A DNA stretch of 64,000 nucleotides from Akkermansia muciniphila (lineage in GTDB: Bacteria > Verrucomicrobiota > Verrucomicrobiia > Verrucomicrobiales > V1-33): assembly GCA_945900785.1 (NCBI GenBank), contig CAMDJM010000003.1:1-64000 (forward strand). Direction: 5' to 3'. Shown in pieces: positions 4,178 through 27,554 of this stretch (its first letter is position 1; each line of letters begins with the position of its first letter). The notes beneath the pieces were generated by a model. That model saw only the letters and a program-made list of their open reading frames with translations. It had not been told where the DNA came from and made no database searches. A program made the position numbers and the translations under genes.

Positions 4178-7100
4178 TCAGGGATAGCTGCGCGCCCAAA
4201 CCCGGGCGAAGCGGCGGTTGGTCCCCATGGGCATGGTGTCGCGCCAGGTGACTTCCTGCATGCCCTGGCGCAGGAGGACCGGAGTGCCCAATTGCACCGT
4301 GGCCGATTCCCAGAACGCCAGATTGCTGGTGAACTGCACGTCGTAAACCAGATCGATGGCATCCTGCCGGAGGGCAACGGTGGCTGTGGCATAAGTGTCA
4401 GGGCCGATGGTGGTGAATCCGGTCCTGACAACCGGGGCCGCCGGAGCGCGACGGGGATCCTGACCGAAGGCGTATTCGCCAAAATTGCTGAGACCATCCT
4501 GATCCGGATCTGCGTCCGGGCCGGCGATGGCGGGGTTTTCATTGCCATCCGGCAGGGTGACTTCTGCTTCTGTGAAGGACCGCCAACGCCAGCCGGGGAA
4601 AGTGTTGGAGAAATTGGCATCGCCAGTGCCTGGCGAGCCGGAAACGGCACCGCTGATGGCCCAGTGGGTGGGGAATCCATAACCGCTATAGGATGGAGCT
4701 GCATCCCGCACCACGAGGGTGCGCCCCCTGCCGTCCGTGACCGGATACCAGGTGTCGTTGTAGGAAAAATCGAGCACTACTTCACCGGAAGCATCCACCA
4801 GTTCGATGGCTTCCCCGCCGTTATCGAGGCTGCCAAGGAAAGGACCGGCGGGAGTAGCCACGCCCGGATAGCGGAGCTGGAATGCCGGAAGATGGGCCGC
4901 CACCAGGAGGCGGGCTCCGGCCGCCAGGGTGGTGCCGGCGGGAAAGGTGTATTCGATGCCTTTGGTGAAGCGGGCCCCGGCCAGATTCAACGGTGCGGTG
5001 CCGGTATTGAGCAGTTCGAGGTATTCAAAATCATCCGCCACCACACTGCTGATGGCGGCCGTTTCGCCAGGCGACGGATCGACCGGATGATAGTTGAGTT
5101 CCGTGATGCGGAGGAATTGCTGGGCCGGGGTGGGATTGGCAGCGGTGGTGAGGCTGGTCACGGGGTTATTCGCGCTGTCGCGCAGTTCCACCGTTTCCCC
5201 CCGGGAGGAGAGCTGGCCACGGTAGGGACCGACCACGAAACGGGCCTCCCCTTTTTTCGGGCTGGTGGTGCGCAGGCGGAAGGAAGCCTGGCGCGGGGAA
5301 ACGTAAAGAGAACCACCAGCGTTGATCACGGTGCCGCCTTTAAAGGTAAAGCCGACTCCGCCGCTCAGGCTCCAGCCACTGATGTCTGCCGCGAAAGCAT
5401 TCGGATTGGTCAATTGAAGATACTCTTCATTCTGCGTCGTGGAGCCGGCGGGGAAGGCCTCGTAGCTGCTGATCGTGATAGGCACTAACGCAGGCTGCGG
5501 CGCAGCGGGGATGCCGGCGCTTCTGGCATTGGTAATGCCGACGTTCACGGTGGAGGTGTGAGTAGTGAACAGGTGGGTGCGGCGCGGGGTGAGGAAAAGG
5601 TTTTTGAACTGGGTGATGGCATCCGGGAAAGTCTGATTGCCAAAGCCGTAGGGTCCACCATTCGAGGGGCGGCCCCAACGGGCCCGGTCCAGCACGGCGT
5701 CCGGGGTGATGCGGGCAACGTGGGCATCCAACATGGATTCGATGAGGGGATTCACGGTGCCCGGGGGCTGCAAATACCGGTCCATGATGCTGCGCATGCG
5801 CTGCAGCAGCATGGCCCGGGTTTCCGGCACGGAGATGATCGCGTCGTAAAACCGGTTATAAGTGCCTGGATTGTATTCCACGGCGCAGGCCTGATTCCCA
5901 TAGAGAGGATGGCTCTTGTTCCGGTCATTGGCGGCATGGATGACGGAATTAAAGGCCTGATTATCATCGTAGTAGAGCTGCCCCCAGGAGAGGTTGGTAT
6001 CGAAGGGGATGATGCGCCACTCCCCGGTGTTATCACTGTCGCGGTGAATCACCATATTGGCCCAGACGTCATCCCCTTCCTGGGTGATACGGGCCACGGC
6101 GAGGTAGTTGACCACCGCAGGAAGATCAATCTGGTCGAAGACGTTATTCCTCCGGATGGTGGCATTGGTGGAGGTGATGGCATTGACGAAGTTCTGCATG
6201 TCGGCGCTGCTCTCGGCGATCCGGGTTTGTTTTTCCCCGGCGGCACTGGCCATCTGGCCGACGCTGGCATACATGGCCCCATTGGGATCCAGGCCCATGT
6301 TATCCAGCAGCTCAAAGTCCTGGGTTTCCGTGTGGAAGGCGAGCTGCCAGAAGTTGCCATTGATCTGACAACGCACCGGAAAGTGCTCGGGACCGCCCGT
6401 GCCGGAAACGCGGTGCAGCCACATGCTGAGCATTTGGCGGCTGTAACTGGGATCCACGTATTCGGCGTTCAGCGCCAGCTCGCGCAGGCGGCTGCGGCCC
6501 GGTGCCCGGCGGAATTGGTGGTCGCCATTGAAGTCCACCCGGTGGGCGCGCTTGTTCAGGTTGCGGGTGGTGTCGCCTTTGATGCGGATGAAGACGTTAT
6601 CGTAAAGTTCGCCATCATGGAAAAAGGAGGCGCGCCCCCCCACGTTGTCCTGATCGATCACATGGCTATTGTTGTAGGCATAAGTGCCGGAAACAAAAAC
6701 GCGGTAGACGGGAAGCTGCGTAGGAATGGTATCCTGGGCCACGGTGCCATAATATTGGTCCCACCGGGTGGCATTCAGGTAGGGTGGGGAGGTGCCGTTT
6801 ACGGCGGTATTATCCGTCGCGATGATGCGCCACCGCAGCATCTGGCCCGCCATCAGGGTGGAAGTTGGAATGGCGGCGGTGTAGATGCCACCCACGCCAG
6901 GAGTCATCCCGATGAGCACTTCCGGGGTATACATGACCCGCCACGCCAGCTTGACCGGACTGACCGCGGCGAGCGGGCGGAGGCTGGGAGTGACTTTAAC
7001 ACTGATATTGATGTCAGGACTGCCCACGCCACCCGGCGGGCGGGGCGGCAGGGCCAGGCCACCCTCATAAGTCACATCCGTGATGAAAGGGCCGATGGTG

Positions 7101-8887
7101 GTGCGCACCGCAGTGTTGGCCGCTCCGGGGGTATTGGTGGTCAGGTAGTTTCCGGCGGGGTCACCGCTGACGGTTTCCAACGTGGTGAGGGACAGCAAGG
7201 CGGGATCCGCCGGGGCCTCCTTCAGCGCCTGGATCGCGAGGATATTGAGCCCGGTTTTTAAATTGGCATTGGCCGCAGGCACGTCCGTGCGGCGCAGGCG
7301 CCCGGGGTGGGAAGGCCCGGTGGCAATGCTGTTCCAGACAGGCTCCAGCGGCGCATGGTGGGAAGCCACCTGAACTCCATTCACCCAGGCAATGAACCCG
7401 GCGCTGGTGCGGGTGGTGAGGCGCAGGGTTTGCACCTGGGCGGGATTGGTCAGGGCAAAGGCGTAGCGCAAATAGACTCCGGCATTTCCCGCCAGGGCCG
7501 CCGTCAGATCCAGCCCGGCATCGGCGCTCTCCACGCCTGCGTCCACTCCCTGAAAAAGCCGCGCGATCTGCGGGGCGCTGAGGGCGGTATCGTAGAAGCG
7601 CACATCGTCCAGCAGGCCATTGAACTTTTGCCAGTAAGAATCGTGGGAGCGCCCCAGTTCGATCGCCTGGCTGGCAGGCCAGGACCATGCCGCGCTGTGG
7701 GTCACGGAGCCGCTGGGCACGCCATCAATGTAAAAGGCATCCGTGCCGCCCGCCGCCTGATCGTAGACGAAGGCCACGTGGTGCCATTGGTTATCGTCCA
7801 CCCGCGTGGTGGAGTAGAGGGGATCGCTGCCAAGGGGCTGGCTGAGGAGTTTGCCAGGATTGGGGTTGGCTGCGGCAGTCAGCGCGAGGACGGTCCCCTG
7901 GGTGGTGCGGCGGTCCCAGAGGATGGCGGCTTCCGATCCTCCTGCGGCGGTGGCGGTGGCTCCTGAGTTCATCCAAAAGCAAATGGTGCCGCTGGCCGCA
8001 TCGAAGTCAGGATGCGCCGGAATGGTGAGCTGGGAACTGCTGGCGGCAGCGGCGGCGGCGGCGAATTGCAGAGAGCCGGAGCGGACCATCGGCACGGTGG
8101 CCGTATCCTTGGACGATGGCATGAAAATGGTGGTATTGCTGGTGTTGAGCGCATGATGGGCCGCGCCGGAGCTGTCCTCCGTCAGGGTAGCCGCGCTGGC
8201 AGCGGCGAGCCGGAGCTTGAGATTGGCGGCGGCCAGGGGGGGCACTGTGCCGGTGGCCGCAACGCCTTGGATCCCACTGGTCCAGGTGCTGTCGGCAAAG
8301 GGCTCTGCGCCTCCCTGCCAGGACGTTCCAAGGAAAGCGCTGGACGGCACCTGCGCCAGCACTGGCCCATTGGCCGGCACCACCGTGGCCAGGGTATTCA
8401 CGGTTGGCCCGTAGGAGACGTCAGGCACCTGCTTGCGGTAGCCATCGAAAGCGGAAACCACCGTCACCACGCCCGCGCCGGCCTCTTTGGTAAGGGCGAG
8501 ATAGCGGCCTTCATTGGAGGAAATTTTGAAATTGGTGGCCATGCGCGGCTGGATGGCGGTGCCCGTATTATCCTGTCCGGAAACAGACTGGGCGGGCCGG
8601 CGGTCGCGCCCGGAGGCAAAAACGACGAGGCGTTTTCCCGCCCCGAGGGTCCAGCCAGGAAAGGGCCATTTGCGCAGCCGGGTGGCGTCATCCGTCAAAT
8701 ACCACCCGGTCAGAATCACGGGAGCGGCCGAGGTATTTTCGACCTCAATCCAGTCCTCATGCTCATTCACCTCATCGCGCAGACCGGAAACGTTATTGGC
8801 CAGGAATTCGGAAATCCGCAACTGCGCGAGGAGGGGCGTGCCCCAGGCAAGCATGGCAAAAAAGACACCTATTTGAATTCGACTCAT
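4178..8887 (-). CDS. Giant secreted LTD-LamG-CotH protein
   Basis: 1569 residues with a signal peptide (MSRIQIGVFFAMLAWGTPLLA). In order: a lamin-tail domain at about 22-150 (LRISEFLANN, DWIEVENTS), a LamG/concanavalin-like domain at about 220-450 (DVRFYDTALS), a CotH-like kinase domain at about 710-1010 with the acidic motif IPFDTNLSWG near 963, then two more lamin-tail domains at about 1120-1400 (YEAFPAGST, LRITELNYHP). A single thrombospondin-3/EF-like motif follows (DADPDQDGLSN), then a C-terminal beta domain. CotH proteins can phosphorylate secreted proteins in Bacillus; whether this one does is not known. An extracellular or surface location is likely. Confidence 0.85.
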   Translation of the reverse strand: MSRIQIGVFFAMLAWGTPLLAQLRISEFLANNVSGLRDEVNEHEDWIEVENTSAAPVILTGWYLTDDATRLRKWPFPGWTLGAGKRLVVFASGRDRRPAQSVSGQDNTGTAIQPRMATNFKISSNEGRYLALTKEAGAGVVTVVSAFDGYRKQVPDVSYGPTVNTLATVVPANGPVLAQVPSSAFLGTSWQGGAEPFADSTWTSGIQGVAATGTVPPLAAANLKLRLAAASAATLTEDSSGAAHHALNTSNTTIFMPSSKDTATVPMVRSGSLQFAAAAAAASSSQLTIPAHPDFDAASGTICFWMNSGATATAAGGSEAAILWDRRTTQGTVLALTAAANPNPGKLLSQPLGSDPLYSTTRVDDNQWHHVAFVYDQAAGGTDAFYIDGVPSGSVTHSAAWSWPASQAIELGRSHDSYWQKFNGLLDDVRFYDTALSAPQIARLFQGVDAGVESADAGLDLTAALAGNAGVYLRYAFALTNPAQVQTLRLTTRTSAGFIAWVNGVQVASHHAPLEPVWNSIATGPSHPGRLRRTDVPAANANLKTGLNILAIQALKEAPADPALLSLTTLETVSGDPAGNYLTTNTPGAANTAVRTTIGPFITDVTYEGGLALPPRPPGGVGSPDINISVKVTPSLRPLAAVSPVKLAWRVMYTPEVLIGMTPGVGGIYTAAIPTSTLMAGQMLRWRIIATDNTAVNGTSPPYLNATRWDQYYGTVAQDTIPTQLPVYRVFVSGTYAYNNSHVIDQDNVGGRASFFHDGELYDNVFIRIKGDTTRNLNKRAHRVDFNGDHQFRRAPGRSRLRELALNAEYVDPSYSRQMLSMWLHRVSGTGGPEHFPVRCQINGNFWQLAFHTETQDFELLDNMGLDPNGAMYASVGQMASAAGEKQTRIAESSADMQNFVNAITSTNATIRRNNVFDQIDLPAVVNYLAVARITQEGDDVWANMVIHRDSDNTGEWRIIPFDTNLSWGQLYYDDNQAFNSVIHAANDRNKSHPLYGNQACAVEYNPGTYNRFYDAIISVPETRAMLLQRMRSIMDRYLQPPGTVNPLIESMLDAHVARITPDAVLDRARWGRPSNGGPYGFGNQTFPDAITQFKNLFLTPRRTHLFTTHTSTVNVGITNARSAGIPAAPQPALVPITISSYEAFPAGSTTQNEEYLQLTNPNAFAADISGWSLSGGVGFTFKGGTVINAGGSLYVSPRQASFRLRTTSPKKGEARFVVGPYRGQLSSRGETVELRDSANNPVTSLTTAANPTPAQQFLRITELNYHPVDPSPGETAAISSVVADDFEYLELLNTGTAPLNLAGARFTKGIEYTFPAGTTLAAGARLLVAAHLPAFQLRYPGVATPAGPFLGSLDNGGEAIELVDASGEVVLDFSYNDTWYPVTDGRGRTLVVRDAAPSYSGYGFPTHWAISGAVSGSPGTGDANFSNTFPGWRWRSFTEAEVTLPDGNENPAIAGPDADPDQDGLSNFGEYAFGQDPRRAPAAPVVRTGFTTIGPDTYATATVALRQDAIDLVYDVQFTSNLAFWESATVQLGTPVLLRQGMQEVTWRDTMPMGTNRRFARVWARSYP

Positions 8888-9041
8888 GCCATCATCTTAG
8901 GTCCGGGGGGTGAAATTGAAATGAAAATGTGCAGCAGGCTTGGGGGATCCGCCACTATGGACCCCTGGATTGGCATAAAGGGAGCTTGACGTCAGGGGAG
9001 GGACTGGTTTTGATCCAAGGACCTTTGTCTGCGCTTTTTCC

Positions 9042-14133: not shown

Positions 14134-14264
14134 GGTATGAAATGATGCGGCTGGCGGCTTTGTTGGTCAAGTTCCTTTCAGACCCAGGCGTTCCGCGATA
14201 AATCTTGTCACGGACCGACTGAAATGGCGCATTCATAGTGCATCCATCAGCGGCTGCTTTTCCC

Positions 14265-16691
14265 ATGCCCGAACATCACTCAGAACCAAAAACGCCGGAT
14301 GACCTCAGCGGCCTCGATCTTTCAGGCATGTGGCAGCAGGCGCTGCGTCCGCGTTGCGCCGACTGGACGCCGCCGGCACCGGAGGATCTGACAGGGCAAA
14401 TTCCACACTGTGAACTAACGGGACTGCTGGGACGCGGCGGCATGGGGGCGGTTTACCGGGCGCGGCAGACGGCGCTGGACCGGGAAGTGGCCGTGAAACT
14501 CCTGCCGCCGGAGGCCGATCCCGATGGCGCGATGGCGGTGCGCTTCCGCCGCGAGGGACGGCTGCTGGCGCAACTGAGTCATCCTCACATTGTCACTGTT
14601 TTTGATTCCGGCACCACGCCGGACGGGCAACTCTACATCGTGATGGAACTGGCAACTGGCGGCGACCTTGCCAAAAGCATGAACGACTCGCGGCTGCCCG
14701 TAGACAAGGCGGCCGCCATTCTGCTCCAAGTGGGTGCTGCAGTAGCTGCGGCGCATGAACAAGGGGTGGTGCACCGCGATTTGAAGCCGTCGAATGTGTT
14801 GCTGATGTCCGACGGCTCCGTGAAGGTGGCGGACTTCGGCTTGGCCGTTTCACTGCAGTCGCCGGAAACCGAAAGGCTGACCCGTGAGGACGCCACACTG
14901 GGAACCGCCGAGTATGCCGCGCCGGAGCAGTTTGCGGCGCGGAAAGGCGGGCCGCCGCCGGACTGCCGCTCGGACATCTACAGCCTCGGGGTGCTGGCCT
15001 GTGAACTGTTCACCGGTGCCCTGCCGCGCGGAGTTTTCCGGCTTCCCTCACAAAAATCCCCGTCGCTCGATCCTGCGGTGGATGCGGTAATGCTGAAGGC
15101 GCTGCAAACCGATCCCCAGTCCCGCTTTGCCAGTGCGGGGGAATTCTGCGACGCCTTGACGGCGGCCATGGACCGCCCGAAACAGCAGGCCAAACGCGAG
15201 CGTGCGGAGCGCCTGCTCCTGCGGCGTCGGACCCGGATGGCGTTGGCCTTTGGCAGTCTTGCCCTGGCCGCCATCATCGCGGCGGCCTACGGCTGGTGGC
15301 AGCAGCGCGCGGCGGAGCAGCACGCGGCGGAGGCCAGGGAACAGCGTCACAAGGCAGAGGAACTGATTGATTTTCTCGTCAGCGATCTGCAGGCCAACCT
15401 CCGCCAGACGGGACGCGAATCGCTCCTCCGTGCCCTGTCCCAGCAACTGGAACGCTATTTCGCCGGACAGCCGGAGCGCACCGACACCGCATTCCTCCGG
15501 CGCAAGGCAAATGGCCTGCGCGTCATCGCACTGCACCAGCTCAGCCGCGGCAATCCGGATCCTGGATTCCGGCTCACTGCGGAAGTGTTGAGCCTGCGCC
15601 GGACCATCGCCGCCCGGGAGCCAGACAACGTGGACACGGTCCGGGCCCGCAACAGTGCCATGCTCATGCTGGAGGAAGCCCGCATGGAAAACGGTCAGGC
15701 GGAGCAGGCTTCATTCGGGGAAGTGCTCGCTGCTGCACACGCCGCACACCTGAAATTTCCGGATGACCTGCCCGCGACGCTGCAACTGGCACGGACGCTG
15801 CTCTTTGCCGGATACCACGCATTGGGTGCCGGTGCCCACGCGCCTGCGGAGAAACACTTCCATGCCGTAGAGGAGGTCAGCCGTCCCGTGCTGGAAGGTA
15901 TTCCTGGCAATGGCGACTTCCGCGACCATGTGTGGAACGCCCGGGCCGCGCTGGTCGAACTCCGCCAGGTGCGCGGCGACCTGGCGGGAGCGCTGGCGGA
16001 CAATGAAAAGGTGATCGCTGCTTTTCTCCAGATGCTCGACGAGTGGCCGGATTACGACACCGTGAAGCTGGCCCATGTCAGGAATCTCGAACGCAAGACG
16101 CTGCTGCTTTCCATGCTGGAGCGATTCGAAGAAGCCAGCACCGTATCGCAACAGGCCCTGACTGTGATCCGGGATCAACTCGTGAACGACCCCGCCCACC
16201 GGGCAAAGCTGGACCGCCTAACCACCTTACTGATGCAGCACAGCCGCATCCGCCGCGCGCTGCACGACGATGCGGGGGCGCTCGCCAGCCTGGAAGAGGC
16301 ACGTGAAATCTGCGAACGTGTGCTCACCGTTTCACCTTGGGTTTTCACGCTCTACGCGAGGCGCACCGAAATCCTCGCCTTGCTGGTCCAGCTGCGCCCG
16401 CATGAACATGCCGCCGAAGCGACCTTTCTGCGCCGGTATGCCAAAGAGTTGCTCGTCACCACCGAAGCCGCCCAGGGCGAAAAGGAATACCTGCGCCGGC
16501 TCCTCGGAATCCTGCAGGATACCCGCGCCGCCATCGCCGCAGCAGAGGGCGAACCGGCTGCCACAGCTTGGCGGATGGAACAGGCGACGTATCTGCGCCA
16601 TTTCCTGCCCGGCGGCAGTGAAGCCAAAAATGCGCCTCTGGCCACAGGTGCCCATTGGGACTGGATCCTCGGCGAGATGGAGAAGCCGTAG
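14265..16691 (+). CDS. Membrane-bound Ser/Thr protein kinase with TPR-like C-terminus
   Basis: 808 residues from the ATG at 14265; a GTG at 14238 would add nine residues. The N-terminal cytoplasmic kinase has the glycine loop GRGGMGAVY, the lysine of VAVKLL (about residue 78), HRDLKPSN (Asp about 172), DFGLA (about 190) and APEQF. All catalytic residues are present. One transmembrane helix lies at about 324-345. The remaining 460 residues are helical with TPR-like repeats and probably lie outside the membrane. It is a Hanks-type kinase, divergent from the sigma gene that is likely its target. Confidence 0.93.
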   Translation: MPEHHSEPKTPDDLSGLDLSGMWQQALRPRCADWTPPAPEDLTGQIPHCELTGLLGRGGMGAVYRARQTALDREVAVKLLPPEADPDGAMAVRFRREGRLLAQLSHPHIVTVFDSGTTPDGQLYIVMELATGGDLAKSMNDSRLPVDKAAAILLQVGAAVAAAHEQGVVHRDLKPSNVLLMSDGSVKVADFGLAVSLQSPETERLTREDATLGTAEYAAPEQFAARKGGPPPDCRSDIYSLGVLACELFTGALPRGVFRLPSQKSPSLDPAVDAVMLKALQTDPQSRFASAGEFCDALTAAMDRPKQQAKRERAERLLLRRRTRMALAFGSLALAAIIAAAYGWWQQRAAEQHAAEAREQRHKAEELIDFLVSDLQANLRQTGRESLLRALSQQLERYFAGQPERTDTAFLRRKANGLRVIALHQLSRGNPDPGFRLTAEVLSLRRTIAAREPDNVDTVRARNSAMLMLEEARMENGQAEQASFGEVLAAAHAAHLKFPDDLPATLQLARTLLFAGYHALGAGAHAPAEKHFHAVEEVSRPVLEGIPGNGDFRDHVWNARAALVELRQVRGDLAGALADNEKVIAAFLQMLDEWPDYDTVKLAHVRNLERKTLLLSMLERFEEASTVSQQALTVIRDQLVNDPAHRAKLDRLTTLLMQHSRIRRALHDDAGALASLEEAREICERVLTVSPWVFTLYARRTEILALLVQLRPHEHAAEATFLRRYAKELLVTTEAAQGEKEYLRRLLGILQDTRAAIAAAEGEPAATAWRMEQATYLRHFLPGGSEAKNAPLATGAHWDWILGEMEKP

Positions 16692-17161: not shown

Positions 17162-18067
17162 ATGAAAAACAAAGTTCCCCTCCTCCTGCTGGCGGCTCTG
17201 CTTGGGCCGGTATCCCCTCTCTCCCACCTGACAGCGGCAGAACCCGTCAGGGAAGATTTGACCAAAGTCTACGAGGCGGGACGCAACGCCTTCAATAAAG
17301 GCGACTACGTTAAAGCCAAAGCCGCTTTCGCCAAGGTGCTCAAGGCAAAACCGGGCTTCGATCTCGCTATCATTTATATGGCCCAGATCCGCACTGCGGA
17401 GGCCAAATGGGAAGCCCGTCCCCGCTCCCAAAAAATTGCGGAAAAATCATCCGTCTCCACTGTGACCCTCACCAAAGTCACGCTGGCGGATGCCCTGGAA
17501 GTCGTGCGGCGCGAGCTTGAAAAAGCCGGCGGCGGTGCGGAGGCCGGTGCCATCGCCCTCCTCACAGATCTCCCGGCGGAGGTCCTGGAACGGGAGGTGG
17601 ACTTTTCCGTCAGGAATCTCCCCATGCCGCAATTTGCCGGGATCGTGGGCTTTGCAGGCGGCGTGCACCTGGCATGGCATCAGCAGGGCATCTCTGTCAC
17701 CGCCCATCCCCCTGTCCTGCAGGATGATGACCCGGCCGTGGCAGCCACCAAAGCCATGCAGCAGGCCGCCCGCGATAAAATACTGCCCAGCGTGAAAATG
17801 GATGGTGCCAGTGTTGCTGAAGCCATGGCGTGGCTGAACCGTCAAATCACGCCCGGCACTGGCCCCTTGATCATCGGCCGCGAACCCTTGAGCCGCCGGC
17901 CCATTACGCTCGATCTCCGCCACATTCCGCTCACAGAAGCCCTGAATTCCATTGCCTTGGTCTCCGGGATGGAAGTGTCTTGGCACCCCTGGGGGGCAGG
18001 GCTTTCTCCAAAAACGGAACTGGCCTCCACGGGATCTTCCAGCCAGGATGCAAACCGGAAGCCATAA
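17162..18067 (+). CDS. Secreted TPR/STN-like protein
   Basis: 301 residues. A signal peptide (KVPLLLLAALLG) ends before AAEPV. Residues 35-75 form a TPR-like helix pair (AGRNAFNKGDYVKAKAAFAKVL). Two beta-alpha units follow, each with the pattern of the short N-terminal domain of secretins and TonB receptors: SVSTVTLTKVTLADALEVV near residue 96, and LDLRHIPLTEALNSIALVSG near residue 250. There is no secretin pore domain. It may be a periplasmic partner of a secretion or surface-assembly machine, perhaps for the giant proteins encoded downstream. Confidence 0.75.
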   Translation: MKNKVPLLLLAALLGPVSPLSHLTAAEPVREDLTKVYEAGRNAFNKGDYVKAKAAFAKVLKAKPGFDLAIIYMAQIRTAEAKWEARPRSQKIAEKSSVSTVTLTKVTLADALEVVRRELEKAGGGAEAGAIALLTDLPAEVLEREVDFSVRNLPMPQFAGIVGFAGGVHLAWHQQGISVTAHPPVLQDDDPAVAATKAMQQAARDKILPSVKMDGASVAEAMAWLNRQITPGTGPLIIGREPLSRRPITLDLRHIPLTEALNSIALVSGMEVSWHPWGAGLSPKTELASTGSSSQDANRKP

Positions 18068-18223: not shown

Positions 18224-21200
18224 ATGAAAATTATTCAGGTGGCTTTTGTCCTGTCCGCGTGCGCCCTTCTTTCCCATCATGCCTCAGCCGAGACCACGGT
18301 GAACAACGGCTTTGTGTATCCGATCCACGGAGTGGGGGAATTGGATCTCACCGGCGGGTTGATTTATGCGATCAATTTCAGTGCCACGACGACCCCAGTG
18401 GTCAATGGCGTCACGTTTGCACCGGATTATAATCCGCCAGCCGGAGTAACCTTGGCGGGAGCGAACAACATTGATTTCTGGCAGGCTTCCCCAAACTTTG
18501 GATCCACTCCGGATGGTCTCGCATTATCCGAAGTCTACCGCGGCATCCGCTACGCGCTCCCCGCTGCGGGCCAGGCTCTGGAGGCTCACCTGCTAGTGAC
18601 GCCAGGGGAAACTTACAAGATCCAACTCCTCATTTACGAGAATAAAACAGGGAACCGGCGGTGGGACATTCAAGTGGAGGATGTGCTTTCCGTGGATGAA
18701 TTCACCTCCCTGGGGAAAACAACGGTCGACACCTCATTGCGGCCATATCAACCCAACGTGGGGATCGTGTTCACCCAGCAGTTGGTAGCAGGGGACGATT
18801 CATTGGATATTCTCATGGGTGACATCGGTGGGAACAGCGATGGGGGAGACCGGAATCCGATATGTCAGGGGCTGACCGTGGAGCATATTACGACCACTGC
18901 CCCGGACACAGATGGGGATGGGCTGCCAGATGCGTGGGAACAGACCAATTTTGGCAATCTGGCACAAACCTTCAATGGCGACGAAGATAGCGATGCCCTG
19001 AGCAATGGGCTGGAACTGACGCTGGGCATCAATCCGCACCACATGGATTCCGATGGAGATGGACTCAACGATGCGGTGGAACTGGATACGTTAAGCCTAA
19101 ACCCGAAATTGGCGGATACTGATGCCGATGGCCTGACGGACGGGGCCGAGATCAATACCCACCACACCGATCCCCTGCGGGCCGATACGGACTCAGACGG
19201 CTTGAATGATGGCGCGGAGATCATGACACATCTTACCAATCCCCTGGTCACGGACTCGGATGGGGATGACTATCCAGACGGAGTGGAAGTCAGCAATGGC
19301 ACCAATCCGTTGCTCGCCACCAGTTTCCCGCTTCTCAGTAATTTCGTCCAGCCCGTCACGGGTGGGGAAGCGGGGGAGGGGTTGGATCTCACCGGCACCT
19401 TTGTTTATGCCTTCAACGTCGGCTCCGGCACGCCAGCAGGACTGATCCGGGATGCGGACTTCACGACGCAGAACGCACCCGGTATTACCATCGCGGCCAA
19501 TGGAAGCATCGAAAACTGGAGCACGCCTCTCTTCGGGGACACGGTAGAAGACCTGGCCTTGAACACGGTGTTAGCTTCCATCCGCCATGCCGGAGCGAAC
19601 AAAGCGCGAATCACGGTGACCCTGACCGGCCTGACTGCTGGAAGACCTTACAAACTGCAGGTGCTCGCCCTGGAACGATGCTGCAACCGGGGCTTCGATA
19701 TTTATGTGGATAACGTGCTCAAGGTTGATGAATTTGCGCCCTACACGTGGCAGGATAATGTGACCTCCCAAACCATGGGAGGGGTGGCGGTAATAGGCTT
19801 CCTCGCCACCGGCACGTCCACGCAGATTGTCCTGGATGGGGCCACCGTCTCCACGCCAGCCTACACGGACCGGAATCCGATTCTCTCCGGCATCACCCTT
19901 GAGGCGCTCACGGGGGCAGATGCGGATGGGGATGGGTTGCTCGATTTGTGGGAAACGGCCAATTTCGGAAATCTGGCACAGGGACCAACGGGCGATCCTG
20001 ACACCGACGGTTTGAATAATCTGGGGGAATTCACCAACGGCACCAATCCCAATCTTCCGGATACGGACGGAGATGGCCTGAATGACCGGGCAGAGTTGAT
20101 CACACACCTTACCGATCCCAGGGTATCCGACACCGACGGCGATGGCCTCAGCGATGGATCCGAAGTGAACGTTTCCCTCACCAGCCCAATCCTCAAGGAC
20201 ACCGATGGCGACTATTATGCCGATAACGTGGAACTGGCCCAGGGCACCAATCCCAACAGTGCTGCAGTGTATCCCATCTTCACTACGCTCGCCGCTTCGT
20301 TTACCGGCGGAGATCCAGGCGAGGGCCTGGACATGACGGGCAACTTCCTTTATGCCTTCAATGTGGGCACGCCCGGTGCCGCTCCTGGTCCGGTGGGAGA
20401 TGTCAGCTTCACCAGCGATGCAGAGCCGGGTATCACTCTGGCCACCGTCAATGAGATTCCACTTTGGATTACCCCGGAATATGGGGATTCCTCCAATGAC
20501 GACAATCTGGAATTCGTCATGCAGTCCATCCGCTGGACTCCTGCCCCTGGCACGGTGGACCTCGATCTGGCGGGGCTCACGGCGGGCAGGGTTTATAAAT
20601 TGCAGCTGTTCTTTGGCGAAGGCGTGAATCCAACCCGCGGCTTCGATGTGGAGATCGAAGGGCTGCAACGGGTGGATGAGTTCAGCCCTGGCAGTGCCAG
20701 CAGGGGTGCGGTCATCACCCATACCTTCGTCGCCGGCGATGACACGCTGAACCTGGTGCTCAATGGCAACGGTGTGACTACGCTTGGCATTACGGACCAC
20801 AATCCGATCCTGAATGCCGTGACCCTGGAGGAACTCATGCTGCCGGATACAGACAACGATAACCTGCCGGACATCTGGGAGCTGCAGTTCTTCGGCAATC
20901 TGGCCCAGGGGCCGAATGGGAATCCTGACAACGACGGTGTGACCAATGCGCTGGAACTGGCCGCAGGCACCCGGCCCAATGCAGCGGATACCGATCAGGA
21001 TGGCGTCGATGATGGCCAGGAATCTGCCGCAGGCACCAACCCGAACGCTCCCGACACGGACCGGGACGGCCTTGGCGATGGGCAGGAAATCCTGGTCACG
21101 CATACCAATCCGCTGGCAGCCGATACGGATGGCGATGGCTTCATCGATAGCGTGGAGCTGCTGGGCGGTTTCGACCCGAACCAACCCGCCAGCGTTCCGA

Positions 21201-22015
21201 TGCCCACGGTGGGAACTTTCACCGGTGGAGATGTGGGCGAAGGCCTCGATTTGGATGGGACTTTCCTCTATGCCTTCAACGTGGGCACCAACGGCGCTGG
21301 CGGTCTGGCCCGCGATGCCAACATCACCAGCGACAGCGCGCCTGGCATCACGGTCTCTGCGGCCAATCAAATTCCCAACTGGCACAATCCGAATTATGGC
21401 GATACCGCCAATGATGACGTTATCGAAAAAGTCATGCAATCCATGCGCTGGATGCCCGCTCCGGGTATAGTGGGGGTGGATCTGCAGGGAATCGAACCCG
21501 GCAAACGCTACAAGCTGCAACTGCTCTTTGCGGAAACCGGCACGGCGCGTGGATTTGACGTCAACATTGAAGGGGCCACGTTTGTGAACGATTTCTTCCC
21601 AGGCCAGGTGCAGGGAGCAACGAACACCCAGGGTGCAGTCGTCACCCTTGAGTATATTGCCCGTGATACCGTCCTCAACCTTGTCCTCAATGGAAACACC
21701 ACCAGTGCCGGGGATAAAAATCCTATCCTCTCAGCAGTCACCCTGGAACTGGTGCCTCCGGGCGTGCCGTTTACCTTGCAGGTGGTCTCTATCACTCAGG
21801 CGGGCGTCAGCTTTGCGGTAACGGGGGCTCCTGGCAAGACCTATGCATTGGATTACAGTCCCAATTTGCAGTCCTCCACCTGGTCCGAGGAAAATGATGC
21901 CGTGACCTTGAATGCTTCCGGGGTGGGCACGGTGACCGATATTTCTGCTGGCCACCGCAGCGGGGCCACGGGCTTCTGGCGCTTGCGGGATCCGCTCCTG
22001 AAGCCGGCTCCATAG
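18224..22015 (+). CDS. Giant secreted protein with four beta modules and thrombospondin-3 linkers
   Basis: 1263 residues with a signal peptide (MKIIQVAFVLSACALLSHHASA). Four copies of a roughly 190-residue module (GEGLDLTGTFVYAFNVG at its start, DRNPIL near its end) begin at about residues 30, 374, 690 and 995. The first three are followed by an aspartate-rich linker of thrombospondin type-3 repeats (DTDGDGLNDRAE and similar), which bind calcium in known proteins. A short C-terminal beta domain ends the protein. The module looks like a malectin or carbohydrate-binding fold, which is inference. A strong terminator follows the gene. Confidence 0.85.
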   Translation: MKIIQVAFVLSACALLSHHASAETTVNNGFVYPIHGVGELDLTGGLIYAINFSATTTPVVNGVTFAPDYNPPAGVTLAGANNIDFWQASPNFGSTPDGLALSEVYRGIRYALPAAGQALEAHLLVTPGETYKIQLLIYENKTGNRRWDIQVEDVLSVDEFTSLGKTTVDTSLRPYQPNVGIVFTQQLVAGDDSLDILMGDIGGNSDGGDRNPICQGLTVEHITTTAPDTDGDGLPDAWEQTNFGNLAQTFNGDEDSDALSNGLELTLGINPHHMDSDGDGLNDAVELDTLSLNPKLADTDADGLTDGAEINTHHTDPLRADTDSDGLNDGAEIMTHLTNPLVTDSDGDDYPDGVEVSNGTNPLLATSFPLLSNFVQPVTGGEAGEGLDLTGTFVYAFNVGSGTPAGLIRDADFTTQNAPGITIAANGSIENWSTPLFGDTVEDLALNTVLASIRHAGANKARITVTLTGLTAGRPYKLQVLALERCCNRGFDIYVDNVLKVDEFAPYTWQDNVTSQTMGGVAVIGFLATGTSTQIVLDGATVSTPAYTDRNPILSGITLEALTGADADGDGLLDLWETANFGNLAQGPTGDPDTDGLNNLGEFTNGTNPNLPDTDGDGLNDRAELITHLTDPRVSDTDGDGLSDGSEVNVSLTSPILKDTDGDYYADNVELAQGTNPNSAAVYPIFTTLAASFTGGDPGEGLDMTGNFLYAFNVGTPGAAPGPVGDVSFTSDAEPGITLATVNEIPLWITPEYGDSSNDDNLEFVMQSIRWTPAPGTVDLDLAGLTAGRVYKLQLFFGEGVNPTRGFDVEIEGLQRVDEFSPGSASRGAVITHTFVAGDDTLNLVLNGNGVTTLGITDHNPILNAVTLEELMLPDTDNDNLPDIWELQFFGNLAQGPNGNPDNDGVTNALELAAGTRPNAADTDQDGVDDGQESAAGTNPNAPDTDRDGLGDGQEILVTHTNPLAADTDGDGFIDSVELLGGFDPNQPASVPMPTVGTFTGGDVGEGLDLDGTFLYAFNVGTNGAGGLARDANITSDSAPGITVSAANQIPNWHNPNYGDTANDDVIEKVMQSMRWMPAPGIVGVDLQGIEPGKRYKLQLLFAETGTARGFDVNIEGATFVNDFFPGQVQGATNTQGAVVTLEYIARDTVLNLVLNGNTTSAGDKNPILSAVTLELVPPGVPFTLQVVSITQAGVSFAVTGAPGKTYALDYSPNLQSSTWSEENDAVTLNASGVGTVTDISAGHRSGATGFWRLRDPLLKPAP

Positions 22016-22042
22016 CGGCGATCCAGCCGCCTCACTCCCGGT

Positions 22043-22085
22043 GCCGGTGCTGGACGAATCTGTCCGGCACCGGCATTTTTCTTTT
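22043..22085 (+). terminator. Intrinsic terminator after the four-module protein
   Basis: GCCGGTGCTGGAC pairs with GTCCGGCACCGGC (one mismatch) over a 6-base loop, followed by a T-rich tail (attttttcttttc-like). It starts 28 bases after the stop codon. Because it covers an earlier in-frame start of the next gene at 22041, it supports the start at 22098. Confidence 0.9.
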
Positions 22086-22097
22086 CCCTGCCCCCCT

Positions 22098-25000
22098 ATG
22101 TTTTTCCGACGGTTCCTTTGCGTTCTGCTGCTGGTCCTGCTGCACAGCAGCCTGCTGCTACGGGCGAATACCACCGCCCTCCTGGGCAACGTCAGGCAGT
22201 TTTCCGGTCCGGGCGATCCTAATCTTGATCTCCTGGGACGCTTCGATTATGCCATCAACTTCAGCCCGGATGATCCGGTGCGGGTGGTCAATGGAGTGTC
22301 CTTTACTCCGGACAACAAGGTGATTGCCGGCGCGACGTTTATTTCGCCACAAAACATCGCCGGCTGGCAGACCAAGCCAGAATTTGGGGCCACGGCGGAT
22401 GCCAACGCGTTGGAGGAAATCATGTATGACATCCGCTGGGCGGACAACGGCAGTGGCCAAAAGGTCCAGGCGACCTTGAAAGTCACGCCAGGCCTGGCAT
22501 ACAAAATTCAGGTGCTGATCTCGGGCAATGGTCCGGAAAACCGCCGGTGGGATATCCGCTTCAATGGCTTGAATGCGGTGGATGAGATTACTTCGTTGGG
22601 AGCCAGCCCGGGCCAATCCTATGCGCAAAACCGTTCCACCGTCTGGACGTATGAATTCACTCCGGCCGGTTCCCAGATTACCGTGGAAATGGGAAATTTC
22701 TTCGGCGTGAACGACGGGGGAGACCGCAATCCCATCTGGCAGGCCCTCACCTTGGAGCGGGTCGCCATCCCGCCCACGCCGGAAGCGGTTTCCCTGAGTG
22801 CCGATCAATTTTTCCCCACTCAAACCGCTTATATTGGAAAGTTGGCAGTCACCGATGAAAAATTCGGAGCCACCCATGTGATTTCTTTCGTGGGTGGCGT
22901 GGGCGCGGCGGATAATGCGAAATTTTCGCTCAGCGGCTCCCAGCTTCTGCCTGCTCCGTTCAACTTTGCCAGCGCGCCCGCAGGCAGCACCTATGCCATC
23001 CGCCTGCGGGCCACGGATGCGGCGGATCCGGCGCGTTTCATGGAGCAGAATTTCACCGTGACGCTGGTGGCACCGCATGGCCCGGTGGATGTGACCCTTA
23101 ATGTCACTTCCCTGAATCGTGGGCTGATCGCCGGACAGTTAGCTGGTGTGATTAGCGCCGTGGATGCCGATCCGTTTGATCGCCCCCTCTTTTCCCTCGT
23201 CCCGGGTGAGGGCGCAGAGCAGAATTCGCTCTTCACCCTCACCGGCCATGAGCTGCGCCTGGCCGCTGCGCTGCCTGCGGGCATCGCAACAGTAAGCTTG
23301 CGGGTCCGGGCGGTGGATTTGGCAGGACTGGGCATCGAACGCATTCTCCTGCTTCCGCTGGTGGACCCGCAGATTAGCATCAAAGAAGTGCTGGCCGTGG
23401 CGACCAGTGCCTCCCTGCCCTTGGATGAAAATGCGCAACCCGCCGACTGGATTGAACTACACAACGAAAAAGCCCAGGCAGTAAATCTGACCGGCTGGCA
23501 TCTCAGTGATGATCCCGGAAATCCTGGGAAATGGACCTTCCCTGCCCTGACGCTGGAGCCGGATGGCTATCTCCTCATCTTCGCGGATGGCTCCAACGCA
23601 GTGCCTGCCGAGGGGCCAGTCCACACCAACTTCAGCATCAGCCAGGGCGGAGAGCGGCTTGTGCTGGCGCGGCCCGACCTGACCATTGTCAGCGACGTGC
23701 GGGTTCCAGAGCAGTATCCCAACGTCACCTGGGGCGTGGGGGCGGGCGGCCCGGCCACCGGCTATCTCCTCACGGCAACGCCCGGGGCGGCCAATGCCGG
23801 ATTGGCTGCGCCAGGGCGCAATGAGGTCCTGTTCAGCGTGCCGCACGGTTTTGCCACAGCGGCGTTTCCTCTCGTCCTCACCGCCACCGCTGCGGACTCT
23901 GTGATTCACTACACCCTCGACGGCACGGTGCCCACGGCGGCGGCTCCAATTTACCAGGGACCGATCACGATCACGCCGGTGGCCGGCACCGTGCAGTCCG
24001 GCACGCGTATCGTCAGGGCCGTGGCCCGGCATCCCGGGGCGGCTTACACGCCGGTAGCCACCCAGACGTATTTGTTCGTCAATGGAACCACCAGCCCAAC
24101 TATCAACGGCATTGTGGGCCAGAGCAACTTTTACAGTTCCATCCGGAATCATCCCGTTTACAGATCCCAGATCGATGATGGCCTGCTCTCCCTGCCGGTC
24201 GTTTCGATCATCAATAGCGCTGCAGATCTCCCCTATTGCGAGACCGGGTCCAGCCTGGAGCTGTTTGATCCTACCGGCGCAGAAGCGGGCTTTTCCACCA
24301 CGGCTGGCATCACCCGCACCGGCACCACCAGCCTGGGCTATGCCAAAGGCAGCCTGAGCGTGCGCTTCCGGGGGGCGTATGGGGCGGGCCGGTTGAAGTA
24401 TCCGCTTTTCGCCCATCATCCTCACGATGCGCAGGGCGCCGCCAGCGAGTTCCAGGAAATCCGCCTGCGCAGTGGCTCGCATGACACCATGTCCTGGGCC
24501 GGCACCGCTGAAAACCCCGGCGTGCCCTACGGATCGCCTCCGGTCACGCGGAGTGGCGATGCGCAATTTGTGAGGAATATCTGGATTGAGGATCAGCAAC
24601 TGCTCATGGGCCAGCCCGGGAAGCATGGCCGCATGGTCAATCTGTTTGTAAACGGCAACTACCACGGCATCTATCATATTCAGGAACACGCCGACGATGA
24701 CTATATGGGAACCTACTTTCCCGGGCCCACCGGAGACTTTCATTACACCGCAGCCGGGGTCACAGGCAGTCAGCATGGGAACGATTCCTGGAATGCGGCC
24801 TGGTCCCAGATGAAGGCTTCCCTGACGGATTACACGCAGGCCAGGCGGTGGGTCGATGCCCCGAACCTGGCAGATTACATGCTGCTCCATTTTTATATTG
24901 GGAATGACTGGGATTGGTGGACGAACCATAACTGGAGTGCCGCCGGACCACGTTTGCCGGACCAGGGGGGCTGGAAATTTTTTGCCCAGGACCAGGACAT

Positions 25001-27554
25001 CAGTCTGCAGGATGTGAACGCCGACTGCACCGACCAGGCGGCCCCCGATAACATATTTAATCTGCTCATGGCCCATCCGGATTTCCGGGTGCTCTTCCGT
25101 GACCGGGCGTATCACCATCTTTTCCACGACGGGGTGCTCACTCCGGCGAAGGCAGCGGCATCCTACCAACTGCGGACCAATGAAATCAACCTCGCCGTCG
25201 TAGCCGAGACCGCACGATGGCAGCCTGCCAGCAGCGTGGGCCCCTTGCCGTGGGACCGCGATGGGGAATGGACCGTGGAGAAAAACTATTTGATGAACAC
25301 CTGGTTCCCGCAACGCCCGGCCAAGCTCCTGACGCAATTGCGCTCGCGGGGCTGGTATCCCGTTGATGCGCCGGAAATGAGCCAAACGGGAGGGTCGGTG
25401 TCCCCCGGTGCACCGGTTTACCTGACCGGACCAGCCGGAGCCACCATTTACTACACAGTCGATGGCAGCGATCCGCGCCTCCCGGGTGGAGCGGTGAATC
25501 CCACCGCTGAGGCCTACCGCTCCACCCTGACCAATCAGGTCCTCATCCAGCCGTATGACGACATTCCCGGCCAAGGCGCGGTTTGGAGCTTTTTGGTTGG
25601 GGCCCTTGATCCCGGCCCTGATTGGAAGGAGCCGGGCTACGATGCCAGCGCCTGGCCGGCGGGAGCTTCCGAGTTAGGCTATGGCGATGGGGATGAAGTC
25701 ACCAACACGGGCAGCGTGGACACCGATCCGGTGAGCCCAGGTGTGCAAAAAAACATCACCACGTATTTTCGCAGGACGTTCACTATCGGCAATCCAGCTG
25801 CGGTGGCTGGTCTAAACCTGCGTTTAAAAAGAGATGATGGAACGGTGGTCTATCTCAATGGCCGCGAGGTGTTCCGCTCTGCGATACCGAACGGGTCGGT
25901 CGCCTTCAATTCACCAGGCAACCTCGGCGTTAATGTCGCGGATGATGGCAACACCTGGTTCCCCAAAACGCTGGTGCCTGCAGACTACACCCTGAATGCC
26001 GGGAGCAACCTGATCGCGGTGGAGGTCCACAATGCGAGCGCGGGGAGCAGTGATATCAGTTTCGATCTCGAACTGGCTGCCACGGTCGCGGCAGCGGCCC
26101 AGCCTATCGCTATCAATGGCCCCCTGGTCATCAAGGCCCGTGCGCTGGCCGGCGGAGAGTGGTCGGCTCTGAATGCCGCGTCATTTTACCTGACCGGAAC
26201 CCAGGCGGCAGACCCCAGCAACCTCACCCTGACGGAAATCCAATACCATCCGGAAGGCGGCGGGGAGAATAATAATGAGTTCCTGGAATTCACCAATACC
26301 GGCCCTGGTGCGTTGAATCTGAGCGGAGTGCAAATCACCGGAGCAGTCACCTTTACCTTTCCCGCAGGCCTGGTGCCCGTGCCTGGGGAGCGGGTCGTCG
26401 TCATCAAAGACCAGGCCTTGTTTGATGCACGATACCGCACCGTGGGGTCGCCATGGTATCATGCGGGCATCCGCGTCGCCGGGGTCTGGAATGGATCCCT
26501 CGCCAACAGTGGGGAGGAAATCATCATCCAGACTGCTGGTGGGGCTCCGCCCGTCCGCTTCTCCTATGAAGATAGTGGCTCCTGGCCAGGCCGGGCCGAT
26601 GGCAGTGGCAGCTCCCTGGAGTTGGTGGATCCGTCGGCGGCTCCCCTCAATGCCGCAGACAAATCCACCTTTCTTGGCAGCGCGGACCATTGGCGGCCCT
26701 CCTCAGAATTTCATGGCTCTCCCGGCTATGCAGGCCTCGGGCCGGACCGCCGCGTCGTGATCAACGAAGTGCACTCCGCTCCGGCCGCCCCGGAGGTGGA
26801 TTTCATTGAGCTGTTCAACACCAGCGCCAGCCCCCAGAGCCTCGGCGGATGGTTCCTGAGTGATACTTCGGCGAACTACCGGAAATACCGTTTTCCCCCC
26901 GCCACCAGTTTGGCTGCGGGGGACTATGCCCTGCTTACAGAAGCCCAGTTCAACCAACCAGCGGACCCCAACAATCTGGTCCCCTTCAGCCTCAGCAGCA
27001 CCGGCGACGATGTGTTCCTGCTGCAGGCCGACTCCGCAGGAAATCTCCTGCGCTTTGCGGACCGCGTCGAGTTCCGCCAAGCCCCTGGCGCCTTAAGCTA
27101 TGGCCGCTGGCCCGACGGCACGGGTTCCGTCGAACTCCTTTCCCAGCCCACTCCCGGAGCGGTCAACACCGCCGCGATCCCAGCCTACGCCGGGTGGATG
27201 GACACGGCCTTTCCCGCCGGCACCCTGCCGGCGGATCTCAGCCCCGGTGCCGATCCCGATCATGATGGTCTCACAAACTTCATGGAATTCGCTGCCAGGG
27301 GCGATCCCCTTGCCCCCACCATCTCACCCTTGCGGCTAACCAGCAACGCCCCGCTGCAATTTGAGTTCACCCTGCGCCATGACGTCCGCGGGCTCATCCA
27401 GGTCTCGCCCGATCTTTCCCACTGGGACCCCTCCGAGGCCGAAGTGCTGCGCCTCTCGACGGTCAACCATCCTGATGGCACCACCACCGTAACCGGCCAG
27501 CTGACTTCCACCCCTGGAGTAAAGCGCTTCGTGCGCCTTGGAATCTCGTTCTGA
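22098..27554 (+). CDS. Giant secreted CotH/lamin-tail protein
   Basis: 1818 residues from the ATG at 22098, which gives a good signal peptide (MFFRRFLCVLLLVLLHSSL). In order: one copy of the beta module found four times in the preceding gene (about 25-225); a cadherin-like pair (about 230-420); a lamin-tail domain (about 425-540, DWIELHNEKAQAVNLTGWHL); a chitobiase C-terminal-like domain (IHYTLDGTVPT); a CotH-like domain (about 690-1045, GWKFFAQDQDIS); a second chitobiase-like unit (IYYTVDGSDP); a beta sandwich; two more lamin-tail domains (about 1370-1660); and one DADPDHDG-type calcium motif. A surface or extracellular role is likely; the target is unknown. Confidence 0.87.
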   Translation: MFFRRFLCVLLLVLLHSSLLLRANTTALLGNVRQFSGPGDPNLDLLGRFDYAINFSPDDPVRVVNGVSFTPDNKVIAGATFISPQNIAGWQTKPEFGATADANALEEIMYDIRWADNGSGQKVQATLKVTPGLAYKIQVLISGNGPENRRWDIRFNGLNAVDEITSLGASPGQSYAQNRSTVWTYEFTPAGSQITVEMGNFFGVNDGGDRNPIWQALTLERVAIPPTPEAVSLSADQFFPTQTAYIGKLAVTDEKFGATHVISFVGGVGAADNAKFSLSGSQLLPAPFNFASAPAGSTYAIRLRATDAADPARFMEQNFTVTLVAPHGPVDVTLNVTSLNRGLIAGQLAGVISAVDADPFDRPLFSLVPGEGAEQNSLFTLTGHELRLAAALPAGIATVSLRVRAVDLAGLGIERILLLPLVDPQISIKEVLAVATSASLPLDENAQPADWIELHNEKAQAVNLTGWHLSDDPGNPGKWTFPALTLEPDGYLLIFADGSNAVPAEGPVHTNFSISQGGERLVLARPDLTIVSDVRVPEQYPNVTWGVGAGGPATGYLLTATPGAANAGLAAPGRNEVLFSVPHGFATAAFPLVLTATAADSVIHYTLDGTVPTAAAPIYQGPITITPVAGTVQSGTRIVRAVARHPGAAYTPVATQTYLFVNGTTSPTINGIVGQSNFYSSIRNHPVYRSQIDDGLLSLPVVSIINSAADLPYCETGSSLELFDPTGAEAGFSTTAGITRTGTTSLGYAKGSLSVRFRGAYGAGRLKYPLFAHHPHDAQGAASEFQEIRLRSGSHDTMSWAGTAENPGVPYGSPPVTRSGDAQFVRNIWIEDQQLLMGQPGKHGRMVNLFVNGNYHGIYHIQEHADDDYMGTYFPGPTGDFHYTAAGVTGSQHGNDSWNAAWSQMKASLTDYTQARRWVDAPNLADYMLLHFYIGNDWDWWTNHNWSAAGPRLPDQGGWKFFAQDQDISLQDVNADCTDQAAPDNIFNLLMAHPDFRVLFRDRAYHHLFHDGVLTPAKAAASYQLRTNEINLAVVAETARWQPASSVGPLPWDRDGEWTVEKNYLMNTWFPQRPAKLLTQLRSRGWYPVDAPEMSQTGGSVSPGAPVYLTGPAGATIYYTVDGSDPRLPGGAVNPTAEAYRSTLTNQVLIQPYDDIPGQGAVWSFLVGALDPGPDWKEPGYDASAWPAGASELGYGDGDEVTNTGSVDTDPVSPGVQKNITTYFRRTFTIGNPAAVAGLNLRLKRDDGTVVYLNGREVFRSAIPNGSVAFNSPGNLGVNVADDGNTWFPKTLVPADYTLNAGSNLIAVEVHNASAGSSDISFDLELAATVAAAAQPIAINGPLVIKARALAGGEWSALNAASFYLTGTQAADPSNLTLTEIQYHPEGGGENNNEFLEFTNTGPGALNLSGVQITGAVTFTFPAGLVPVPGERVVVIKDQALFDARYRTVGSPWYHAGIRVAGVWNGSLANSGEEIIIQTAGGAPPVRFSYEDSGSWPGRADGSGSSLELVDPSAAPLNAADKSTFLGSADHWRPSSEFHGSPGYAGLGPDRRVVINEVHSAPAAPEVDFIELFNTSASPQSLGGWFLSDTSANYRKYRFPPATSLAAGDYALLTEAQFNQPADPNNLVPFSLSSTGDDVFLLQADSAGNLLRFADRVEFRQAPGALSYGRWPDGTGSVELLSQPTPGAVNTAAIPAYAGWMDTAFPAGTLPADLSPGADPDHDGLTNFMEFAARGDPLAPTISPLRLTSNAPLQFEFTLRHDVRGLIQVSPDLSHWDPSEAEVLRLSTVNHPDGTTTVTGQLTSTPGVKRFVRLGISF

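Follow-up and report, generated by a model that had tools for sequence, protein, structure and literature searches.

The window, the whole stretch of 64,000 nucleotides that was analysed, encodes two adjacent giant proteins, P1 and P2, which share a module of about 190 residues, and the locus raises the question of which family this module belongs to and what it may do.

Module copies and subtypes

P1 shows 1263 amino acids, with a signal peptide in residues 1-22 and four copies of the module, and P2, which follows on the same strand, shows one copy at its N-terminus, as claimed in the initial annotation. The features of the region are:

18224..22015, + strand: P1, exported protein: signal peptide, four modules joined by TSP3 linkers, C-terminal beta domain
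18293..18895, + strand: module copy 1 (P1), subtype B, like the P2 copy
18899..19327, + strand: TSP3 calcium-type linker 1 (P1), with Pfam PF18884 and DxDxDG motifs
19331..19915, + strand: module copy 2 (P1), subtype A
19679..19684, + strand: two adjacent cysteines of copy 2, at the loop corresponding to malectin Y116-F117
19916..20278, + strand: TSP3 linker 2 (P1)
20279..20842, + strand: module copy 3 (P1), subtype A
20843..21199, + strand: TSP3 linker 3 (P1)
21200..21760, + strand: module copy 4 (P1), subtype A, used for structure prediction
21764..22012, + strand: C-terminal beta-sandwich domain of P1, about 80 residues, related to about 50 places of the genome
22040..22077, + strand: strong terminator-like hairpin of 17 pairs in the P1-P2 interval, with a T-rich tail behind it
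22098..27554, + strand: P2, exported giant protein of 1818 amino acids from ATG 22098 (the listed open reading frame starts at GTG 22041)
22167..22769, + strand: module copy 5 (P2), subtype B, at the N-terminus of P2; the full-length orthologues all show it there too
24606..25280, + strand: CotH kinase-like region of P2

An alignment of the five copies extends over the whole module and shows 30 invariant columns; any two copies are about 28-58% identical. The repeat is far beyond chance, and represents a real repeat of a real family, because a whole-genome search with copy 4 recovered the other window copies at E-values of 8e-56, 1.7e-39, 3.7e-14 and 9e-13. The same genome contains another close copy (57%) at a different site (L002/L047), and a CotH/LTD giant (L048:2523-7316) shows at its N-terminus a very divergent, weakly matching module of the same kind (E about 1e-6). 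The calcium-type TSP3 linkers proposed between the copies of P1 were found: TSP3_bac (PF18884) matches 12 stretches of P1 (E 1.4e-41, 140.4 bits against a Pfam cut-off of 25), confined to the intervals between copies, and 13 DxDxD motifs lie between residues 228 and 967. The motif GEGLDL..YAFNVG, reported for all four copies of P1, is present in copies 2-4. Copy 1 reads GELDL..YAINFS and shares the alternative form ..LDL..YAINFS with the P2 copy.

A tree of 56 rows divides the modules in two types, A and B (98/94). Type B contains all P2 copies and the first copy of P1, and type A contains copies 2-4 of P1 together with modules from related multi-domain proteins. The number of five copies given in the initial annotation is thus right, and its description as four alike and one divergent is replaced by two subtypes, since copy 1 groups with the P2 copy. 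Four-module homologues of P1 were found in three genomes of the same family (L142-L144), and P1 copies 1, 2 and 3 each cluster with the same position in these homologues (99/99, 100/99 and 98/94, respectively). The nearest row to copy 4 is L039 (96/85), and the fourth position of L142-L144 is a weakly supported sister (83/44). Since the tree groups copies by position across L142-L144, the four-head layout of P1 is read as old within the family, with no recent amplification.

Relationship to the malectin family

A 40-row profile of module relatives (A2) was compared by hhalign with true verrucomicrobial malectins (A3, 12 of 16 Pfam-confirmed malectin domains gathered from the same order), giving Prob 97 and E 1.1e-10 over 129 columns. 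Repeating the comparison with only the six closest malectins gave Prob 95.7; when the columns of their six-row alignment were shuffled, 30 times in all, Prob was never above 1.1. Verrucomicrobial sets of CBM6 and CBM35 gave Prob 16.8 and 8.4, respectively, which are near background, and membership of these families was rejected, even if they belong to the same general jelly-roll class. The AlphaFold model of copy 4 (pLDDT 96.2, pTM 0.92) shows the malectin beta jelly-roll; its eight best Foldseek matches in the PDB are the malectin-like ectodomains of FERONIA and ANXUR1/2, at E 1e-5 with moderate TM-scores (0.58-0.67 by query length), followed at lower rank by CBM35s and a domain of Cry proteins. 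A viral fold search returned only loose jelly-roll matches, largely tail proteins.

Because the profile comparison and the search with the predicted fold both lead to malectin, the module is assigned to a divergent, poorly modelled branch of the malectin family. It was earlier thought that it might be a new beta fold, and both lines contradict this suggestion; a genuinely new fold unrelated to malectin is now highly improbable, although single window copies stay at or below 12.1 bits with Pfam Malectin (PF11721, cut-off 23) and a PDB sequence search reaches malectin at E 0.3 only. Fibronectin and MS2 coat matches in the PDB sequence searches are chance-level. Over the whole of P1, Pfam Malectin reaches 23.1 bits summed over the repeats, right at this cut-off, and several P1-type relatives of the same family reach 21.3-23.9 bits. 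The model matches nine of the 40 family members at E<=1 (best 1.9e-4), and DUF642, also considered, shows weak matches in two of the 40, with too few clear members for a profile. No NCBIfam model was found for the module. The remark that the module carries no recognised name is therefore accurate, since no library model names it reliably, and the likeness to malectin, foreseen as one outcome of building a profile and predicting the fold, appears at profile and fold level, with no single window copy reaching the Pfam cut-off.

The match to malectin (PF11721, CAZy CBM57; X. laevis 2k46/2kr2) is collinear and includes the segments VYQTER/QSIRW, HFAE/LFAE, R-x-FD and the final beta-strand. Unlike malectin, the module shows a longer N-terminal segment (GEGLDL...) and an extra stretch of about 20 residues which bears an invariant Trp, and its loop at the position of FAEIYW has no aromatic pair; most members also score under the Pfam domain cut-off. 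FERONIA and ANXUR1/2 resemble the module in the loss of canonical sugar residues of malectin, which in the module concerns the pair Y116-F117. They occur, however, as fixed tandems that share a cleft and belong to a receptor kinase, whereas the modules are single heads separated by TSP3 repeats in exported bacterial proteins.

The genome scan identified 25 module loci, all of them in records titled Verrucomicrobiota or members thereof, so that the term verrucomicrobial, used from the outset, holds for everything searched, and within the searched genomes this malectin branch was found only in Verrucomicrobiota. When 388 genomes from the phylum were sampled, the A2 profile gave a match at E<=0.001 in 33, and many of these matches are weak. 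About 20 of the 25 loci are P2 orthologues, with 46-68% identity in the aligned part. All full-length orthologues recovered show the N-terminal module, in a scan seeded with the module that could miss orthologues devoid of it. Literature on malectin with Verrucomicrobia, CotH with the lamin tail domain, and verrucomicrobial giant adhesins contained no description of the module. These giants also occur in several records under the title 'Akkermansia muciniphila' (L031, L037, L040, L042 and L045). Since L045 is identical at the module to L145, which belongs to a genome of the same genus as the window, these species titles are probably wrong.

The P2 gene and its genomic context

Besides the module, P2 contains LTD domains and Fn3_assoc/CHB_HEX_C, and its CotH region is weak, with 21.7 bits against a Pfam cut-off of 23.8; in its L039 orthologue CotH reaches 42.1 bits. 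It resembles the CotH/LTD giants in these domains and differs from them in the sub-cut-off CotH score and in the N-terminal malectin-type module. The listed start, GTG 22041, lies inside the hairpin, and ATG 22098 opens directly onto a clear signal peptide and is the likelier start. The hairpin also weakens the reading of P1 and P2 as one operon and, because it separates the genes, leaves their co-expression uncertain.

In the window, as in L039, L040 and L146, a P1-type gene immediately precedes P2 or its orthologue; in L043, L046 and L047, the neighbour of the P1-type gene is a different CotH/LTD giant. No CotH-type neighbour was seen in L044, L045, L142-L144 and L149, partly because contigs end, and most P2 orthologues do not adjoin a P1 gene. 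The association of P1 with CotH giants is only suggestive, since such giants are frequent: the 5-Mb genome shows 31 CotH kinase-domain places, 30 of them over the Pfam cut-off and mostly in open frames of more than 1000 amino acids, which is an unusual expansion. Another LamG/CotH/LTD giant of about 1572 amino acids, with no malectin-type module, lies in the window at 4181-8896 on the minus strand.

The C-terminal domain of P1 is also present in P2 (27252-27551), and the approximately 50 places of the genome were matched at E<=0.01. It shows the motif ..YxxDYSxxLxxW....FYRLRDP, has no Pfam name and is predicted as a beta sandwich (pLDDT 92); a fold search of the PDB gave nothing significant, with Fn3-like designs as best match (E 0.085). 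It is perhaps a sorting or anchoring domain. Just upstream of P1 are genes encoding a Ser/Thr protein kinase whose C-terminal extension is long (14238-16691) and a small exported TPR-like protein (17162-18067); for neither of them was a homologue found in the related loci L022-L048.

Ligand loop and proposed function

In X. laevis malectin, the diglucose residues are Y67, Y89, Y116, F117 and D186 (PMC7783096). The PDB alignment, which stops before D186, places a Trp of the module on the column of the tyrosine in malectin QTERY, and residue spacing suggests that this column corresponds to Y89. Among 38 modules compared, it is aromatic or His in all (36 W, one Y and one H). Another Trp, two columns from Y67, and the DxNP motif are invariant. 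The equivalents of Y116-F117 are missing: local malectins read FAEIYW or FAEIFW in this loop, and 36 of the 38 modules have no aromatic residue there, with CC or polar residues instead. The loop reads (F/L)xE-x-CC, with adjacent cysteines, in 16 of 28 type-A modules, and the remaining 12 contain no cysteine at all. Type-A modules never show an odd cysteine count or cysteines without the CC pair, and the adjacent pair is absent from all 28 type-B modules. P1 contains four cysteines in total, two of which form the pair of copy 2 and one of which is in the signal peptide.

This all-or-none occurrence of the pair in an exported, cysteine-poor protein suggests that it forms a vicinal disulfide. Such disulfides are able to pack on a sugar ring at its undecorated face (PMC12102755), and in the type-A heads that carry the pair this bond could act as a sugar-stacking platform. 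The module resembles known vicinal-disulfide sugar sites, such as that of arabinofuranosidase 1wd4 (PMC12102755), in its adjacent cysteines, here at the place of the ligand loop, and is a candidate for such a site in an exported, otherwise cysteine-poor binding module. It differs from 1wd4 in fold and loop context, and both the disulfide and its sugar contact are putative here.

The reading that we favour, if only by a little over even chances, is that P1 is a multivalent extracellular glycan binder with malectin-type heads, adjoining the CotH/LTD giant P2. The signal peptide would export P1, three calcium-stiffened TSP3 rods would space the four heads, and the C-terminal beta domain would close the chain. 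The heads would probably bind glycans through the loop face used by malectin, retaining one of its aromatic positions as a near-invariant Trp, and, with the stacking pair Y116-F117 missing, their ligand would probably be other than diglucose. In many type-A heads, copy 2 included, the cysteine pair in the ligand loop would offer a possible stacking platform, and P2, with its single N-terminal head, may be recruited to the surface or polymer to which P1 binds. A bolder version is tentative and rather doubtful: a vicinal disulfide would have taken the place of the aromatic pair in some heads only, so that one calcium-stiffened array would combine differing specificities, with one head type common to the neighbouring CotH-type giant.

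Sugar binding or adhesion is the best guess for the module, judged from sequence and predicted structure. Against a glycan ligand, 12 type-A modules and all type-B modules have neither the CC pair nor the malectin aromatic pair. Plant malectin-like domains of the same fold also have no canonical sugar residues, and no oligosaccharide binding was detected in the tested members (PMC6038381), so the fold alone does not prove sugar binding. This family, through FERONIA and ANXUR, provides the closest structural matches, and the missing aromatic pair of the module also fits a role of the fold in binding proteins or peptides, as in the CrRLK1L receptors of plants. P1 would then be a matrix or surface scaffold docking other surface proteins, P2 included, with the CotH-type proteins of the genome as possible partners. 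We consider this rather unlikely: the near-invariant Trp residues (W63 and W86) and the Cys-Cys of the ligand loop would suit sugar stacking, and no partner is identifiable from sequence. Still less probable is that the modules are ligand-free spacers which extend surface fibres and are conserved for folding only. They do alternate with rod-like TSP3 repeats, and several invariant residues (G, D, N and P) look structural, but P1 copies 1-3 have each been maintained as a separate orthologous lineage across genomes, and an all-or-none cysteine pair in one loop is unlike mere spacing.

For the favoured reading, a glycan binder, the cysteine pair would represent a new way of building a malectin binding site if it proves to be a sugar-contacting vicinal disulfide. 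For this branch, most of which escapes the current models, the module alignment provides a Pfam-ready profile. The genome encodes dozens of exported CotH/LTD-type giants, and related Verrucomicrobiota encode more; the recurring malectin-type head gives the first testable ligand hypothesis for these proteins.
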